Assembly: GCA_013202495.1 (NCBI GenBank)
Contig: JABMQQ010000174.1
Coordinates: 1 to 64,000 of the forward strand
Direction: 5' to 3'
Origin: Fidelibacterota bacterium
Lineage (GTDB): Bacteria > Fidelibacterota > UBA8477 > JABMPR01
DNA: 64,000 bases
Within the stretch, counting starts at the first letter, position 1. Each line of letters opens with the position of its first letter. The notes under the pieces are model-generated. The model was given only the letters and a program-made list of their open reading frames with translations. It made no database searches and was not told where the DNA came from. This document shows, piece after piece, positions 28,023 through 37,754 of this stretch. Position numbers and translations under genes: made by a program.

Positions 28023-28274
28023 ATGGTTAAGAAAAGAGATACCGTTACTTATGAGTTAAAGGATGGGAACAGGGTTGTTTACGTCGGGACAACAAATGAC
28101 CCGGACCGTCGAGAGCAAGAGCATAAAGACCAGGGTAAGAAGTTTGGTCATATGAATGTAACATCTCGGAAGATGACTGATGATGGTGCAAAGAAGAAGG
28201 AGTCTGAAAAACTTGCCACCTATCGCAAAAATCAAGGCAAGAATCCCAAGTATAACAAAGATTCTGACGGGTAA
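28023..28274 (+). CDS. Small GIY-YIG-like nuclease
   Basis: VTYELKDGNRVVYVGTTNDPDRREQEHKDQGKKFGHM. Confidence 0.65.
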   Translation: MVKKRDTVTYELKDGNRVVYVGTTNDPDRREQEHKDQGKKFGHMNVTSRKMTDDGAKKKESEKLATYRKNQGKNPKYNKDSDG

Positions 28275-28581: not shown

Positions 28582-31306
28582 CTAACTTTGATACAATAGA
28601 TCAATGTTTGCGACACCAGGAATGAGGAGCCACTCAAAAGCTTCTTCACTTGAAATTTTCTTGTTCAAAAACAGGATATAAGCTTCCGCAAAAGCATAAT
28701 GTGGAACTAATGTTACTTTTTGAGATCCATTCGCTTGTACCTTAGAAAATGTATCGAACTCTGGTTTTCCTAAGGTGATAAGATGCTCGTCAGAAAAACT
28801 TACAGCTTTTGTGAATACATCGAATGCTTCATCCTTGTCAATTGTTGCATCGTCTTTCTGCTTTGTCTTACACTCAAGCAAAGCCTGCTTATCTCCAAAC
28901 GATATTGAGAAATCGGGGACCCCTTTTCTTCTACCATCGTCAAGTTGAATAACTTCCCAACCAAACATTTTCATCATTTCTTCGACTACTTCTTCATATT
29001 CATGACCGCGCGCAGAATAAGACCTCTCAATCAATTCCTTAATCCCAACTTCAGCAGCTTTCCCCTCATGAAGAATTTTCCAATACTCATTTATTTTCTC
29101 AAAATACCTTCCGACAGCCTCCACAAGACCTTTCGCTCGGTCAAGGCTATCAACCCTTTTGGCTATTTTTGCTAAACTAGATTTTAGCAGTTGATTTGGG
29201 TCACTTAATCCCACTTCTGCTAAAGCCATGGCTCGTTGTCGTCCAAAACCTGGTACACTAAAAGATTTGGCCGCCACTACTATGTCAAGTGCCTCCACTG
29301 AAACTCCATACCGTATTTGATTTGAGTATATCAATAAGGATGAGCCAAAGGCTTTATCGACACCAGAATCAGCTGAAGTAACAATCTTGGATAATCCAAC
29401 TATCACCCATGAAACATCTGAAGCAAGAGTCTGGAATTGACCGTAGCTTATAGAAGGGAGGTCGCGTCTGAGTTTTCGTTCACTAATACCCTTAGCCCAT
29501 TGATCCAATCCATACGCAGCATTGACTACTCTATCATAGATTGGTGAGCTCATGGCAGGGATTAACAAATTGGATTGATTCACACTTTTCCATGCGATTG
29601 TCTCTGGTTGGTTTCTTCGTGCAAATGGTAAATGTCTTTGTTTGGTACTTACATCGAATTCTGCTGAGGAACAGATAGCATGTAAAAGAGGGATACCAAG
29701 CAAACCCTCTTCAGTTTTCTCGTTATTTAACCTTAATACATTAATAAGAGAAACACCAGTTGCCGGCAACAAGCCGGATCCTGAAATAGCAGTTCCTAAT
29801 GGAGTTGAGACCAGCCTTGTGCTTTGTTCAACTAGCAGCTTATTCTCTATTAACCATTGAACTGCTTCAGCAACTAAAGGTGGAACATCCTCAGTTTTCT
29901 TTGGATTATGTTCAAGGTGTTGGTGCCACCAAAATGAGCTGGCATAAAAATTATTAAGGCTATCTTCCGTGTTGCATATACCGCTAGAGATCAAATTCAG
30001 AACCGATTTCCTAATGCTTTTGGAGAATAGCTTTGAGGATATTCTTTCCGCAGGAAGTGTTAAGTAGTTTTTTGCTTGAATAAACTCTGTTCTACTTCCG
30101 GTAATCAGGACGGAGAGACCTTTATCATCAAGACCTAATCTCCCCGCACGTCCAGACATGTTGAGAAATTCTGAGTGTGCAATCCATTCTGAAACCCATC
30201 TTCTGTAGAATGAATCAAAGACTACAGTACGTATTGGGAAATTTACTCCTGCCGCAAGAGTTGGGGTTGAAAATACTACATCTAGATGACCTTTTCGTAA
30301 GGCTTCTTCAACGACCTCTCTCTTCAAAACTTAGATCCCCAGAGTGAAAAGCTGTCCTCCGTTCACATGTCTCTTTTAGTATTCCTACTGTTATAGTCAA
30401 CTCACTGAATAATTCTATTTGCTCTCCCACTATAATCGCGGATATATCTTTTTCTCTTGTTCCAGAGAAACCCTGGGCTAACTCAATTGCTCTGGGCTTC
30501 GTCATTGTAAAAACCAAAATAGGACCCAGCTTTAAATTCAACAAATTATTCACTACATGGATAGTATCGTTTACTACATGTGCATTCTCTTGATCTTCAA
30601 ATAATTCGTCTTGACCGTAGAGATTGTGAAAGAGTCGCCCTTCGTTCCATATCTCTTGTCTTAGTGGCACATCCCGATGTGAGATTTTTATCCCCTTACA
30701 ATTAAACCAAGTTGATAGTTCATCAACATTGGGGACAGTGGCAGTTAATCCAATAAATTGAGCCGGAGATCCCATTCTAATTATAGTGCAAAGTATTTCT
30801 ATTTCAGAACCGCGAGAAACGTCTGATAATATCTGAATCTCGTCAGCAATCACTACTTTCCCTTCGAATGAAAAATTACTTGAGGTTGTAATTAAAGACA
30901 AATATTTCTCATATGTTGAGACTAATATTCCATTGTCCCAATCACCATCGACATGATCACCCGTAGCAATGGAGACATCAAACAACTTTTCTAATTCATC
31001 TCTAAATACTGTCTTGAAATAATTGTATTTTTCCTCAGCCAATGCTCGATGCGACACTAAATAAACTGTTTTCTTGCCTTCAAGAGCCCCAAGAATTGCT
31101 GCAATCTCACCAATAGTAGTTTTACCAGATGAAGTAGGTGCTGAGACAACCATGCTACTCCCTTTACCCAGCCCAGATTCAATAGCCTTTGATTGAACTC
31201 TAGTAAAAGATTCCCAGCCCAATTTTTGGTAGACACTTAAAACCTCTTCATTTATTCCAAATGTGCTAGCTTCTTTGAAATCCATTACCCTATCCCCAAT
31301 TGCCAC
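28582..31306 (-). pseudogene. SKI2/Hel308-like helicase with HhH and C-terminal PD-(D/E)XK-like nuclease, split by a frameshift
   Basis: 30308..31306 has VSAPTSSGKTTIGEIAA, VIADEIQ, GLTATVPN and ends FHSGDLSFEERGR*; 28582..30327 resumes EVVEEALRKGHLDVVFSTPTLAAGVNFP...NMSGRAGR and ends with GVPDFSISFGDKQALLECKTK. Confidence 0.8.
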
Positions 31307-31379: not shown

Positions 31380-31808
31380 TCATTTCTTCTTTACAGTGAA
31401 TTTAGTTGTTAATAGTGTAGTTTTTCCAGATAAACTGAGTGATGTTTGATCAAATGGAAAGCTATTCACGTATTCCGTATTTTCAGGTGGTTTGTGTTTG
31501 AAAATCATTGCCGCTTCACATCTATCTCTACTCGTTGAGGACACACTACCAAAATTATAGCAAAGTATCTCATCTTGTTTCAGATGTGTTCTCCACTTAG
31601 CTAATTTCTCGTGATCCTCAATACGTTTATGAACGTTTTTAGATTCCCCAATGTATACCAGTTTTTTTAAAGTTACTGTTCCTCCCTTTTTGTCATGGGT
31701 GCAAGTATAGACGCAGTAGATTCCTGATTCAGATGGGATTCCACCCTTCTTCACTTCTCGCCAATATCCTTTGAAAATAATGTTATATTTTTGTGCTGAC
31801 ATTTTCAC
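31380..31808 (-). CDS. GIY-YIG domain protein
   Basis: SGIYCVYTCTHDKKGGTVTLKKLVYIGESKNVHKRIEDHE. Confidence 0.8.
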   Translation of the reverse strand: MKMSAQKYNIIFKGYWREVKKGGIPSESGIYCVYTCTHDKKGGTVTLKKLVYIGESKNVHKRIEDHEKLAKWRTHLKQDEILCYNFGSVSSTSRDRCEAAMIFKHKPPENTEYVNSFPFDQTSLSLSGKTTLLTTKFTVKKK

Positions 31809-32520: not shown

Positions 32521-33321
32521 CTAATCAAAAAGTGATGGATCAGCAGTTTTGGGATGGAAGGTGCCGATGATCAGGAACGGGTTTGTACCAGTAAAGTGAT
32601 GTGCTTGTGTCGTGCCTAGGAAAAGATACAAATCCTTGGTCTTTGCGAAATCATCCCAGTATTTCTTCTTTACATCTGCACAAGCTTTATCCTCATCACC
32701 ATCATACTTCTCTAGCATTCTCCAGTACAACCGTCCAATTTCCCAGTCCTCGATCATGAGTCTACTGATATTTCCCTCATCATCTTTAAAAACGTACTTA
32801 AACTTATATGGTAACTTTGAGACTATCTTGAAAGGTCCCGTTTCAAACAAATCAGTCTGGTTAAACTGAGCTAGTTTCTTGGGGTCCCACTCTCGATCCA
32901 CCTTTGATATAGTCATACCTAATAGTTTTGTGGGCTTGAAAACTGCTAAAGACACAAGCTTTGATGGATCTCTAGCATCAGCGACCAATGAGTCTCTATT
33001 AGTATAGATATTGTTCAGTACTAATTCTTTTCTAGTTGTCCATGTGCCATTTTCGGTTCCGATTTTATCCCCTAACTCAATTTTCTCCCAATTCAAAACC
33101 TTGTGGCTCTCGGGTCGAGGATCAGATGAGTTATTCTCAATGTCAGCAATTATCCATTGATATTTTTTATACTGCTTGTCAAAATCCAATTTGCGAAAGG
33201 GAATTGGATATAGCCGAATCCAATCGCCGTTTTCAGTTAATCCAGCGGTACACACCAATTCACTATACTTAGTGCTTATAGTGGGGTAGGTCTTTACCGC
33301 GATGAGGATTTTTTTCTTCAA
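32521..33321 (-). CDS. Dual-OB (DuOB)-like domain protein
   Basis: ILIAVKTYPTISTKYSELVCTAGLTENGDWIRLYPIPFRKLDFDKQYKKYQWI...DPRPES; family recognised from memory. Confidence 0.6.
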   Translation of the reverse strand: MKKKILIAVKTYPTISTKYSELVCTAGLTENGDWIRLYPIPFRKLDFDKQYKKYQWIIADIENNSSDPRPESHKVLNWEKIELGDKIGTENGTWTTRKELVLNNIYTNRDSLVADARDPSKLVSLAVFKPTKLLGMTISKVDREWDPKKLAQFNQTDLFETGPFKIVSKLPYKFKYVFKDDEGNISRLMIEDWEIGRLYWRMLEKYDGDEDKACADVKKKYWDDFAKTKDLYLFLGTTQAHHFTGTNPFLIIGTFHPKTADPSLFD

Positions 33322-33329
33322 GAAGTATG

Positions 33330-34211
33330 CTATATGTAGGATACACTAAAAGGGGTGAGTGAGCTCTCTATAAGCCTATTTATAACTCGACTACGGTGGC
33401 AGTAGGTGTGATCATACTCGAAGCAGGTGATCGCCACACGCTTATGCTTAGCAAATTCACTCAATATTTTTTGTAAGCTATCTGGTTCATCCTGTAAGAC
33501 AGTATTCTCATATTCAGTGAATAAACGATTATAGTCGTCTAACGTGTTCAAGTCAGCCCGTTTGTTGGAAGTAATTCCAAGCTCCGGAATATGTAAATAT
33601 TCAATGTTTAGCTTCTCAAGTGCGTTCCTGAGTTGATTTTTTGAAAATCCATATTTCATACTCAATGCATTTTTCCGAACGTCAACAAGCATTTGGATAT
33701 TGTTTTGAACAAGCTGATTTAAGTAGTGGTCAAAGCTCTTACTCTCGTAGCCAATTGAATAAATACCAGGTTTAGTATCATTCGGTCTTTCTTCCTCGAC
33801 TTTGGCTATTTGATCTGCAGATAGAATCGAACTAAGAATCTCGCTATTGATAGCGAAATAGGGGTATTCACAATAGACACGGTTTATCAGTTCATTGCCC
33901 TTAAGGTTTCCATAACTAATAATGAGCTTTCGAAGAGACCTTCTGTCATCAGGATTCAGCATTGAGAAATAATCAACATCATCGTCCTTCTTCCAATCGT
34001 CTTGATCAGCAAGAATTCCGTACTTAGTCAAAGTCCGTTTGTCGGCATAGGACTGGAAGGAAAAACAGCCGTATTTGTATGGGACGAAGTCATAGGCCGG
34101 TTTTTCCTGACCCTGAACAAAAAGAAATAAATACTTTTGGAGATCCGTATTCATGACTTTACCACCAAATTTCTGGATTATTGCCAGGATTATTTTTCTA
34201 CGGTAATACAT
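33330..34211 (-). CDS. DUF488 protein with N-terminal wHTH/SocA(Panacea)-like domain
   Basis: IYSIGYESKSFDHYLNQLVQNNIQMLVDVRKNALSMKYGFSK...ITCFEYDHTYCHRSRVINRL; 8 bp from the next gene. Confidence 0.8.
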   Translation of the reverse strand: MYYRRKIILAIIQKFGGKVMNTDLQKYLFLFVQGQEKPAYDFVPYKYGCFSFQSYADKRTLTKYGILADQDDWKKDDDVDYFSMLNPDDRRSLRKLIISYGNLKGNELINRVYCEYPYFAINSEILSSILSADQIAKVEEERPNDTKPGIYSIGYESKSFDHYLNQLVQNNIQMLVDVRKNALSMKYGFSKNQLRNALEKLNIEYLHIPELGITSNKRADLNTLDDYNRLFTEYENTVLQDEPDSLQKILSEFAKHKRVAITCFEYDHTYCHRSRVINRLIESSLTPFSVSYI

Positions 34212-34299: not shown

Positions 34300-34728
34300 T
34301 CACACACTTAGATTTTCATATATAGTACGCCTTAGCGCTTTGACTGCAAAAGCTGCCATTATTTCAAGTTCTTCCTCATGTTCTTCAGGGACATCTAGTA
34401 GAACTTTATCATTCCATGGATCACCTACATGGACCCATTTATTTCGGTATTTTCTAATTTTATGAAGGTCTAATTTTAGAGTATCTTCGATGGAGGATTG
34501 ATTAATTAACTCAAAAAGACTTTCACGGGACTTTTCCGCATATTCTGACCTTAGATAGGTCTCAATTCCAGCAACAGCCGTTAATATTGCACCTAAATGC
34601 GCTTCTCCGACATAAGCCATATCACATTCACGAACAATCGCGGAGCACCATTCAGAGAGGATTACACCACCCTGTAGCAATTCATCATCTAGAGAGCATA
34701 ACCACTCCCAACGATCAGTTTTATTCAT
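34300..34728 (-). CDS. HEPN-like small protein
   Basis: Helical protein with RKYRNKWVHVGDPW (RX4H). Confidence 0.5.
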   Translation of the reverse strand: MNKTDRWEWLCSLDDELLQGGVILSEWCSAIVRECDMAYVGEAHLGAILTAVAGIETYLRSEYAEKSRESLFELINQSSIEDTLKLDLHKIRKYRNKWVHVGDPWNDKVLLDVPEEHEEELEIMAAFAVKALRRTIYENLSV

Positions 34729-34762
34729 TTGCTATCTACCTCTACCATTTAAATGCTCATTA

Positions 34763-35332
34763 CTACTCATTAAATGAAGAATATGAAATTTTACGCCCCA
34801 ATAATTTCAAGTTATCAATATTGGGGATGGATACCTCTGGATGTATGGAGTTGATGATGAAGTCCTCTCTAAGTTGCATTAGCAATCTTCCCAGGGCATT
34901 TGTACCAATATAATGATCATCTTTCAAGGCTGCTCCCCAGATCTTACCATCAGGCGCTTCCTCAACTATTGGCAAATCTTTAGTGAGTAACAAAACTCTT
35001 GAGAAATTTTCCCAGTTTTGAATTAGCTTAATCTCTATGCACATTTTCATTATTGAAAATTGTATTCTCTTCCAGTCATCCCGCGTATCCCCATAATACT
35101 TTTTGCTTTTCATTTTTGCAGTCATTGGACTGTTTTGATCAAGTATTATCTTTTGAACATCAGGCTTGTGTGGGTATCTCAGTGATTGATATAATGCTTC
35201 AGATGTTTTTACTGGAATTCCATTGACGACCAGAGGGTAGCCTGGAGCCATATTCGATAAACCACCATATTTACCCTTGGTTGCTTTAAATACGGCACAC
35301 TCCCCATTTTTATATTTTCTAATCGAGCTCAA
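34763..35332 (-). CDS. NADAR-family protein
   Basis: GGLSNMAPGYPLVVNGIPVKTSEALYQSLRYPHKPDVQKIILDQNSPMTAKMKSKKY...RDDW...VEEAPDGKIWG...GTNALGRLLMQLRED. Confidence 0.85.
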   Translation of the reverse strand: MSSIRKYKNGECAVFKATKGKYGGLSNMAPGYPLVVNGIPVKTSEALYQSLRYPHKPDVQKIILDQNSPMTAKMKSKKYYGDTRDDWKRIQFSIMKMCIEIKLIQNWENFSRVLLLTKDLPIVEEAPDGKIWGAALKDDHYIGTNALGRLLMQLREDFIINSIHPEVSIPNIDNLKLLGRKISYSSFNE

Positions 35333-35335
35333 TTT

Positions 35336-36376
35336 CTACAACCCTCTGTTGGCAACAGGGAATAATGGATACCAACCATTTGCCTCCCACCAATAGACCA
35401 AAGGACAGGTATTCGAAACATTTCTCCATGTGAATGCGTGACTCCCTGCACCAAATGTCTTATAACTGGGTGGCACAAGCCCCAAAGGTCTTATTGGTCT
35501 ACTTATATGCTCAATACGATTGATAATTTCGATACCCTTTTCTAAAATTATCCATTCATACTTTACCCTATTTTCAGGAGAAGAAAAGAAAGCTTCCACC
35601 CGTGGTGTTTCAGGCGACCTATATGCAAATTCTTCATTTCTATCCGCATTAGTCAATGTTTGGAGGTATTCATCAAATATTTCATGATCAGACCTTTTTA
35701 CAGGAAATGCATTATTAAAACTTGGGTTGGGATTATAATAATTTATCCTTGGATGATTCTCTATTTCTTCGAAACGAATCCAATCAATTTGCCTAACAAA
35801 ATCACGACTAAATTCGTTCAATAAACTAAACTTTGTATTTGCGAAACCCCAGGAATGTAAGAAGAAACTAAGATTGATAAGTTTCTTCTCCTGACCCAGG
35901 AAGTTTTCAACGCCGAATTCACTTATCAGGGGGATAATATCCCTTTTAAAGCTTCCTCCTGAGGCGAACACATCATCTAAGTATACCCAGTATTTTGCTT
36001 TGCTATTGCCCTTTTTTATGTCAACTCCATACTCAGACTTTGTAAGGTCATTGAGAAATTCTAACAATACTGATTGGCTCTTATGATCAGCTTGCAAATT
36101 TAAAAAGTGTGATTGTTGAAGAAAGGTGATCGTTTCGTCGAAGCCATATTTGTTTGTGAGAAATTCTAAAGATTCTTTTAATCCTGATATAGCATCTGGT
36201 TTTGATAAATAGGATTTTGGCAGGATGTTAAGCAGTTCCTCAAGTAAGAATTTTCTGTCATTAACCTCGAATTGATTAGCCCATGTTAAAATTCGATTTA
36301 TATCGATCCTAATTCCATCATTACTTCGGTAATCATGCAATATGTCAGCTATTTTATTGGCAGTATTTTCCATCAA
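35336..36376 (-). CDS. Phosphoribosyltransferase-like protein (possible conflict-system PRTase)
   Basis: KYWVYLDDVFASGGSFKRDI resembles a PRPP-binding DDxxxxGGS loop; 3 bp upstream of NADAR gene. Confidence 0.55.
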   Translation of the reverse strand: MMENTANKIADILHDYRSNDGIRIDINRILTWANQFEVNDRKFLLEELLNILPKSYLSKPDAISGLKESLEFLTNKYGFDETITFLQQSHFLNLQADHKSQSVLLEFLNDLTKSEYGVDIKKGNSKAKYWVYLDDVFASGGSFKRDIIPLISEFGVENFLGQEKKLINLSFFLHSWGFANTKFSLLNEFSRDFVRQIDWIRFEEIENHPRINYYNPNPSFNNAFPVKRSDHEIFDEYLQTLTNADRNEEFAYRSPETPRVEAFFSSPENRVKYEWIILEKGIEIINRIEHISRPIRPLGLVPPSYKTFGAGSHAFTWRNVSNTCPLVYWWEANGWYPLFPVANRGL

Positions 36377-36382
36377 AAATCC

Positions 36383-37264
36383 TTATTCATCAACCAGTTT
36401 TTGCGAATGTGTTACCAACTCTTTAAAATCACTTTCTTTAATGATTCGAATATTCTGTCCTTCAGATATCAGAAGCTCTGCCTTGCGATGTTTTGAACTT
36501 TTCTCACTACCAGCCAGCCGTGATATGTCTTGATCTCCCACAACCAATAGACTTGTCTTTTTATTCACACCAGAATTTACTGTGCATCCAATTTTCGCCG
36601 CTAATTCGACAGCTTCTCTACGGGGAATTTCTAAGGCTCCTGTAAATACCAGGACTTCACCATACAATTCACCATCGTGATTGCCCTCTACATTCCTAGC
36701 AGAGTGATAAGATTTCTTTGTTGGATCTATAGGCTTATTAACTCGTCCTACCCATGACTCAATATCTAAACCGGTGGTTTCGATTGCTGCTAGAAGGACC
36801 ATCCCAGCTGCCTTGGCATCTTCAAGAGCGTCATGGTGTTTAAATTCGTATCCAATCTTTTTACAGACATCTGCAAGACCATATCCGCGCCATCTGCAGT
36901 CCTCCCATGTTCGCCTAGCAACCTTGGCAGAGTCTAGCCACACGCTATCATATTCCTCAAGACTGTACTTATTTAATGCTCTTCCTATGGCGACTCTATC
37001 AAAATGAGTATGACAAACACAAATGGCATTGTTCAGGAAACTTCCTAAAATAATACCTATTTCGGGGATAGTTGGAGCCCCGATAACATCAGTTTCAGAT
37101 ATTCCATGAATTCCAACATTGATAGGGCTGAAATAATCACCGGGGTTAATTAACGATGACCATTCTTCAACCAATTTACCATCTACATATTTAGCAATAC
37201 CAATCTGACAAATAGAAGCCATATCTGCATTTGCGGTTTCAACATCAATTGCTATAAAATTCAC
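36383..37264 (-). CDS. DEDDh exonuclease fused to BRCT
   Basis: FIAIDVETANADMASICQIGIAKY...HHDALEDAKAAG; BRCT GEVLVFTGALEIPRREAVELAAKIGCTVNSGVNKKTSLLVVGD. Confidence 0.9.
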   Translation of the reverse strand: MNFIAIDVETANADMASICQIGIAKYVDGKLVEEWSSLINPGDYFSPINVGIHGISETDVIGAPTIPEIGIILGSFLNNAICVCHTHFDRVAIGRALNKYSLEEYDSVWLDSAKVARRTWEDCRWRGYGLADVCKKIGYEFKHHDALEDAKAAGMVLLAAIETTGLDIESWVGRVNKPIDPTKKSYHSARNVEGNHDGELYGEVLVFTGALEIPRREAVELAAKIGCTVNSGVNKKTSLLVVGDQDISRLAGSEKSSKHRKAELLISEGQNIRIIKESDFKELVTHSQKLVDE

Positions 37265-37274
37265 GTCTTAATCC

Positions 37275-37754
37275 TTAAGATTGAGCTTTACCAAGTTTAG
37301 TGATATCGTTGGTATAAGTCACTTTCATACCGGTTCTAGAACAGAAGAGGTCACGTTCTTCCGACACATCAACATTTAAATCTTCGTCACGCAGCCCTTG
37401 CCATTGAGCTAGATAATGTAATGACCCATATTTTTCATTCTTTTGTGTTGGTTTCTCTGTGCCGCCTTTCCAATTAAGAACAGGTAGTTCACCATTCTTT
37501 GCTTTCCTGGCTATTTCAGGATCTTTCAACGCAAGTTTTCTCCCAACCTCCCAGGAAGCGATCAACCCTTTATCTGGACCTTTCCAAAGTTCTTCCCAAG
37601 AAATTTTTCCTCGTATTGGTTTCTGAGTTGATCTATAAATTTGCATAGTCATAATAGGGTCTCCTGGATGGTCTAATGCCATCAAATTTGGGACAAGGAT
37701 GCTTTTTATCCCAGGGCTGTAGAGTCGTCGAACTACGGTCAGGGCATCGGCCAT
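37275..37754 (-). CDS. Hypothetical protein
   Basis: ORF overlapping 37739..38836 by 16 nt. Confidence 0.45.
   Translation of the reverse strand: MADALTVVRRLYSPGIKSILVPNLMALDHPGDPIMTMQIYRSTQKPIRGKISWEELWKGPDKGLIASWEVGRKLALKDPEIARKAKNGELPVLNWKGGTEKPTQKNEKYGSLHYLAQWQGLRDEDLNVDVSEERDLFCSRTGMKVTYTNDITKLGKAQS

Follow-up and report, generated by a model that had tools for sequence, protein, structure and literature searches.

The window, that is, the whole stretch of 64,000 nucleotides that was analysed, carries four minus-strand ORFs at the coordinates given by the initial annotation, which had described them as tightly spaced, and the ORF list of the window reproduced both the 6 bp gap between the exonuclease and the PRTase and the 3 bp gap between the PRTase and the NADAR gene. 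The NADAR gene is separated by 34 bp from the HEPN-like ORF, which lies 88 bp from a DUF488 gene. With their neighbours, the features are the following:

37275..37754, minus strand: small protein, partner of the exonuclease, no family assigned; a 71% identical copy lies upstream of the second exonuclease
36383..37264, minus strand: DEDDh exonuclease with BRCT domain (PF00929, PF00533), a neighbour outside DS-32; second copy in the genome without DS-32
35336..36373, minus strand: PRTase-CE gene (DS32_1), from NF053875, PF24390, Foldseek matches to PRTases and a conserved loop
34763..35332, minus strand: NADAR gene (DS32_2), from NF053876, PF08719, YbiA (2b3w) and catalytic-type residues
34300..34728, minus strand: small ORF with an RX4H motif, a neighbour, with a sub-threshold HepT match
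33330-34211 and 32521-33321, minus strand: DUF488 gene and a second gene, neighbours, PADLOC candidate pair PDC-M19A/B

The PADLOC matches to PDC-M19A/B reach 374 and 380 bits for the DUF488 gene and the 32521-33321 gene, and the DS-32 pair sits among other defence-type genes in the window.

Further along the same stretch, a Hel308-like helicase (28582-31306), with a weak Mrr-type nuclease match at its C-terminus, is divided between two ORFs that overlap in different frames, pointing to a frameshift or an error in sequencing. A small protein with a GIY-YIG nuclease domain is encoded at 31380-31808, and a small ORF at 28023-28274 resembles it by eye.

Identity of the PRTase and NADAR genes

NCBIfam release 20 holds two equivalog models, NF053875 (DS32_1) and NF053876 (DS32_2), for DS-32, a system of two genes. 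Against the first model the PRTase reaches 288.2 bits (cut-off 250), and against the second the NADAR protein reaches 242.2 bits (cut-off 240), a narrow pass by about 2 bits. Judged from these profile matches, the PRTase-NADAR pair in the window is the DS-32 anti-phage system, already catalogued. The proposal that these genes belong to a conflict system is thus upheld, both of them passing anti-phage models, while the description of that system as new has to be dropped, since curated DS-32 models already cover both genes. The name DS-32 probably comes from DefensePredictor (PMC13092281), a link that we infer ourselves: the main text of that paper speaks of NADAR-domain proteins and, in a legend to validated systems, of a PRTase, and it gives neither the name DS-32 nor a mechanism. 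Our literature search found no published mechanism, activity, toxicity or structure for DS-32, and the name PRTase-CE was not found in any paper.

The PRTase has 345 amino acids counted from its ATG, the listed ORF opening one codon earlier at a TTG, and it matches the Pfam family PRTase-CE (PF24390) with 126.3 bits (cut-off 27). Its PRPP-type loop reads YLDDVFASGGS, and all 40 distinct PRTase sequences that cover the loop retain the pattern Y-x-DD-x3-(S/T)-G. At its final position the loop has S or T in seven of these, the window included, and K or R in the other 33, so that PRPP may not be the donor. The family is marked by an invariant block towards the C-terminus, around PLG, GxG, RN and WW. 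An AlphaFold2 model built from 14 sequences (mean pLDDT 71, with the C-terminal 55 residues below 50) was compared with the PDB by Foldseek, and the top 28 matches were all phosphoribosyltransferases, three of the chains being the Thermus protein TT0130, at a best E-value of only 4e-3; no significant relative emerged when the PDB was searched by sequence with the profile of the PRTase. The HMM and structure search that had been proposed for this ORF therefore gives PF24390 and DS32_1 above their cut-offs and, with modest significance, PRTases as the nearest solved folds, and the reading of the NADAR partner as PRTase-like is supported by the family match and the DDVFASGG loop, with weak support from the fold.

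The NADAR protein (189 amino acids) begins at a TTG, 3 bp past the PRTase stop, and its match to PF08719 (77.1 bits, cut-off 35.1) bears out the earlier identification. A PDB sequence search with its profile retrieved YbiA (2b3w) and the NADAR structure 8bau. The catalytic-type residues of the window protein are E45, R52 and E124, and among the DS-32 sequences covering these sites E45 is present in 38/38, R or K at position 52 in 38/38 and E124 in 39/39. By our own mapping, their counterparts in described NADARs would be E88, K95 and the catalytic acid, the residues that matter in DarT1-NADAR (PMC11543638), and a K-to-R change in NADAR is reported to retain hydrolysis in vitro. With the NADAR fold and the catalytic-type E, K/R and E present, the window protein falls into the YbiA-type NADAR superfamily. 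In score, DS-32 NADARs come close to or exceed the riboflavin-intermediate N-glycosidase model. A position near the active site, three residues ahead of the WG motif, is G in the window protein and D in 35 of 39 relatives.

Pairing and distribution of DS-32

A recurrent pairing of PRTase and NADAR, on which the initial annotation had made its proposal depend, was found throughout: a NADAR gene lies beside the PRTase gene in 41 of the 41 distinct PRTase sequences collected; the tally of 67 DS-32 loci counts some contigs twice. In the reverse direction, a PRTase is present at 35 of the 39 viral-contig loci found through their NADAR; among the other four, one (L061) starts too near the contig end to tell, and L073, L085 and L087 are without PRTase. 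The PRTase comes first in the relatives as in the window, and the annotated gaps between the two genes in the relatives are 1 to 5 bp.

Two of these PRTase-less NADARs are close to the DS-32 type and lie on large contigs of the viral collection, L073:3971-4612 (485 kb) and L085:3803-4564 (177 kb), the latter downstream of a gene that by eye resembles one for a DUF262 protein. Were they carried by phages, these NADARs could serve as antidotes.

Relatives of the PRTase occur in Bacteroidota (L002 and four further genomes), in a Klebsiella record, on Methylobacterium and Vibrio plasmids and on many prophage-type contigs, and none was found in the phage-record collection searched with the PRTase. 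In E. coli, a lambdoid prophage has two adjacent genes that bear the DS-32 names, and 62 of the 5,426 complete genomes of this species contain DNA resembling part of the NADAR gene. The window PRTase is 25-29% identical to the prophage forms and 54% identical to a Bacteroidetes form, and the DS-32 copy of the window is a divergent and fairly ordinary new member. Within its own phylum, DS-32 was detected in only one of 245 genomes, that of the window itself, and we therefore consider that it was probably acquired horizontally. In one Bacteroidota genome (L095:4411-8296), the DS-32 pair is followed by a pair that by eye looks Gabija-type, with an OLD-like ATPase and a UvrD-like helicase.

The neighbouring genes

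The initial annotation had seen in these genes a single four-gene system, in which a HEPN RNase and the DEDDh-BRCT exonuclease would serve as additional arms. The common strand and the tight gaps of 6, 3 and 34 bp would fit such an arrangement, and the exonuclease itself was correctly recognised, with 44.5 bits for PF00929 and 26.1 bits for the BRCT domain PF00533. However, a second exonuclease copy, 79% identical and with no DS-32 nearby, exists elsewhere in the genome (contig C204), and directly upstream of this copy lies a small gene 71% identical to the one at 37275-37754, for which the true start probably lies around 37652 (MTMQIYRS...). The other neighbour of the second copy is an ATPase gene, OLD-like by eye. 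Since the pair recurs in the genome with other neighbours, we take the exonuclease and the 37275-37754 gene to be a separate module. Relatives are found on 86 plasmid records, and both of the loci inspected (n=2) have other neighbours. The two places in the genome where this module of small protein and DEDDh-BRCT exonuclease lies are 36383-37754 in the window and L046:8285-9549.

Of the HEPN-like protein with an RX4H motif, the motif stands (RNKWVH) and the HEPN identity was not confirmed: the best curated match is HepT with 14.9 bits, below the cut-off of 60, the single-sequence fold model is poor (pLDDT 47.5), and Foldseek gave no fold match with this poor model. No relatives of the ORF were found in 245 genomes of the phylum, in viral contigs or in plasmids. 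At the first set of DS-32 loci there was no convincing relative of the HEPN-like protein, the exonuclease or the other window neighbours, and the same was true of four further Bacteroidota loci. The two proposed arms are thus missing at every other DS-32 locus examined. Given this comparative context, and an exonuclease module that occurs independently of DS-32, we rejected the four-gene system, which we regard as highly improbable.

Possible mechanism of the pair

Phosphoribosyltransferases form N-glycosidic bonds to ribose-5-phosphate. NADARs break such bonds, both the N-glycosidic ribose bonds of riboflavin-pathway intermediates (PMC9503650) and the N-glycosidic bond of ADP-ribosylated guanine (PMC11543638), and they are known as antitoxins in the DarT1-NADAR and YarT-YbiA pairs (PMC11125620). 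Because of these opposite chemistries, the strict pairing and the two precedents of NADAR antitoxin pairs, the best reading appears to us to be that PRTase-CE is the effector, acting through a toxic ribosyl product or a drain on PRPP, and that NADAR reverses or restrains it, a tentative reading to which we give slightly less than even confidence. Infection would trigger PRTase-CE, which would attach ribosyl-5-phosphate (or a similar group) by an N-glycosidic bond to a base, a nucleotide or nucleic acid, and growth or phage replication would stop, either through the adduct itself or, alternatively, through the PRPP wasted in making it. In uninfected cells NADAR, as reversing enzyme or antitoxin, would cut such N-glycosidic bonds. 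The computed basis comprises family membership, strict pairing and gene order, catalytic-type residues intact in both proteins, and an exonuclease module that occurs on its own; the donor, the acceptor, the toxicity, the direction of control and the trigger are what we infer from there. The K/R loop end of 33 of the 40 relatives (not of the window) would count against a PRTase effector, as would the window NADAR, which is barely over its cut-off and has a G replacing the D near the active site. The strict pairing leads to a plausible and testable idea, a ribosylation undone by NADAR.

The roles of the two proteins could also be reversed, and this is the main rival to the PRTase-effector reading. 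NADAR would then be the effector, an N-glycosidase destroying nucleotides or a cofactor precursor, and would be kept inactive by a PRTase-like protein that acts as a sensor by binding PRPP or nucleotides. The fully conserved NADAR active site, the fact that YbiA-type NADARs are riboflavin-intermediate N-glycosidases, and the K/R loop end in most PRTases, which would fit an altered and possibly non-catalytic site, would be in agreement with it. However, the NADARs described in pairs with a toxin are antitoxins, the DD pair of the PRTase is invariant, and a few large contigs carry NADAR without PRTase, which would be costly if it were freely toxic. We consider this reversal unlikely.

Fusions of NADAR to restriction subunits

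At a minority of DS-32 loci, all from the viral-contig collection, the NADAR gene, with the PRTase gene directly upstream, is fused to another gene:

L053:3995-6181, NADAR-HsdS
L054:3995-6121, NADAR-HsdS
L055, NADAR-HsdS
L058, NADAR-HsdS
L062, NADAR-HsdS
L059:3995-8023, NADAR-HmaB

At L053, L054/L055 and L058/L062, the open frame of NADAR runs on without a break to encode a type I specificity subunit (HsdS), the gene order at L053 being hsdM, PRTase, NADAR-hsdS, hsdR. At L059 a single open frame, located between hmaA and hmaC, likewise covers NADAR and the HmaB methylase. The fusions are thus of at least two types, each joining NADAR to a defence-system subunit that recognises or methylates DNA. 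In the window, E. coli and Bacteroidota pairs that were read, NADAR is unfused, and no restriction-modification system was recognised among the window neighbours scanned. Among the papers listed for NADAR and restriction, none mentions NADAR itself.

These fusions, by analogy with PrrC, raise the idea that DS-32 might guard restriction systems. PrrC is silenced by its linked type I enzyme and freed by a phage anti-restriction factor (PMC2610378). DS-32 would then be a PrrC-like back-up that fires when anti-restriction proteins disable restriction, with NADAR tied to the restriction complex, as the HsdS fusions (with hsdM before and hsdR after at L053), the HmaB fusion and the PrrC precedent would lead one to expect. 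Yet the fusions are a minority, the window pair is unfused, and the fusion may be a by-product of insertion. We give this guard role a low probability; it can be reconciled with a PRTase effector. Less probable still would be a new type of guard. NADAR would here act as antitoxin or sensor, could be incorporated into the type I or Hma subunit that recognises or methylates DNA, and would be displaced by phage anti-restriction proteins, which would free a PRTase toxin whose ribosylation, drawing on PRPP and not NAD+, would hit nucleotides or nucleic acids. If this were true, the copy in the window would be a divergent one that stands alone. The NADAR-HsdS and NADAR-HmaB fusions in any case offer a testable coupling of DS-32 to restriction systems.

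Comparison with known systems

DarT1-NADAR (DarTG1) resembles the window pair in its two-gene pairing and in the catalytic-type NADAR residues, which are kept in the window, but the partner here is PRTase-CE and not an ADP-ribosyltransferase, and the last NADAR strand carries a BC4488-type aspartate in that system, whereas DS-32 has the YbiA-type E124 in 39/39. The remark of the initial annotation that no DarT is present holds for the ORFs of 26-42 kb, among which none is visible. With no DarT nearby and another type of NADAR catalytic residue, DarTG1 was rejected. In YarT-YbiA (PMC11125620) a YbiA-type NADAR likewise stands next to a presumed toxin, but YarT is an ADP-ribosyltransferase and the pair has no PRTase.

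Weak homology, over residues 4-153 (E 6.6e-5), links the window PRTase to the type III retron PRTase effector (PADLOC PRTase_III-A). There was no reverse transcriptase among the ten neighbouring proteins scanned and no Rfam match in the window, and a type III retron was discarded, neither a reverse transcriptase nor a retron RNA being found. Related DS-32 loci that lie inside hsdMSR with NADAR fused to HsdS resemble the PrrC/EcoprrI guard, but no such linkage was seen in the window, and there is no relationship between the PRTase and the anticodon nuclease PrrC.

DS-32 itself agrees with the window in both genes, their order and their tight spacing, and both of its models are passed, the differences being a divergent PRTase and a NADAR that passes narrowly. 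With the pair identified as a catalogued system and the outside neighbours removed from it, experiments can centre on two genes.
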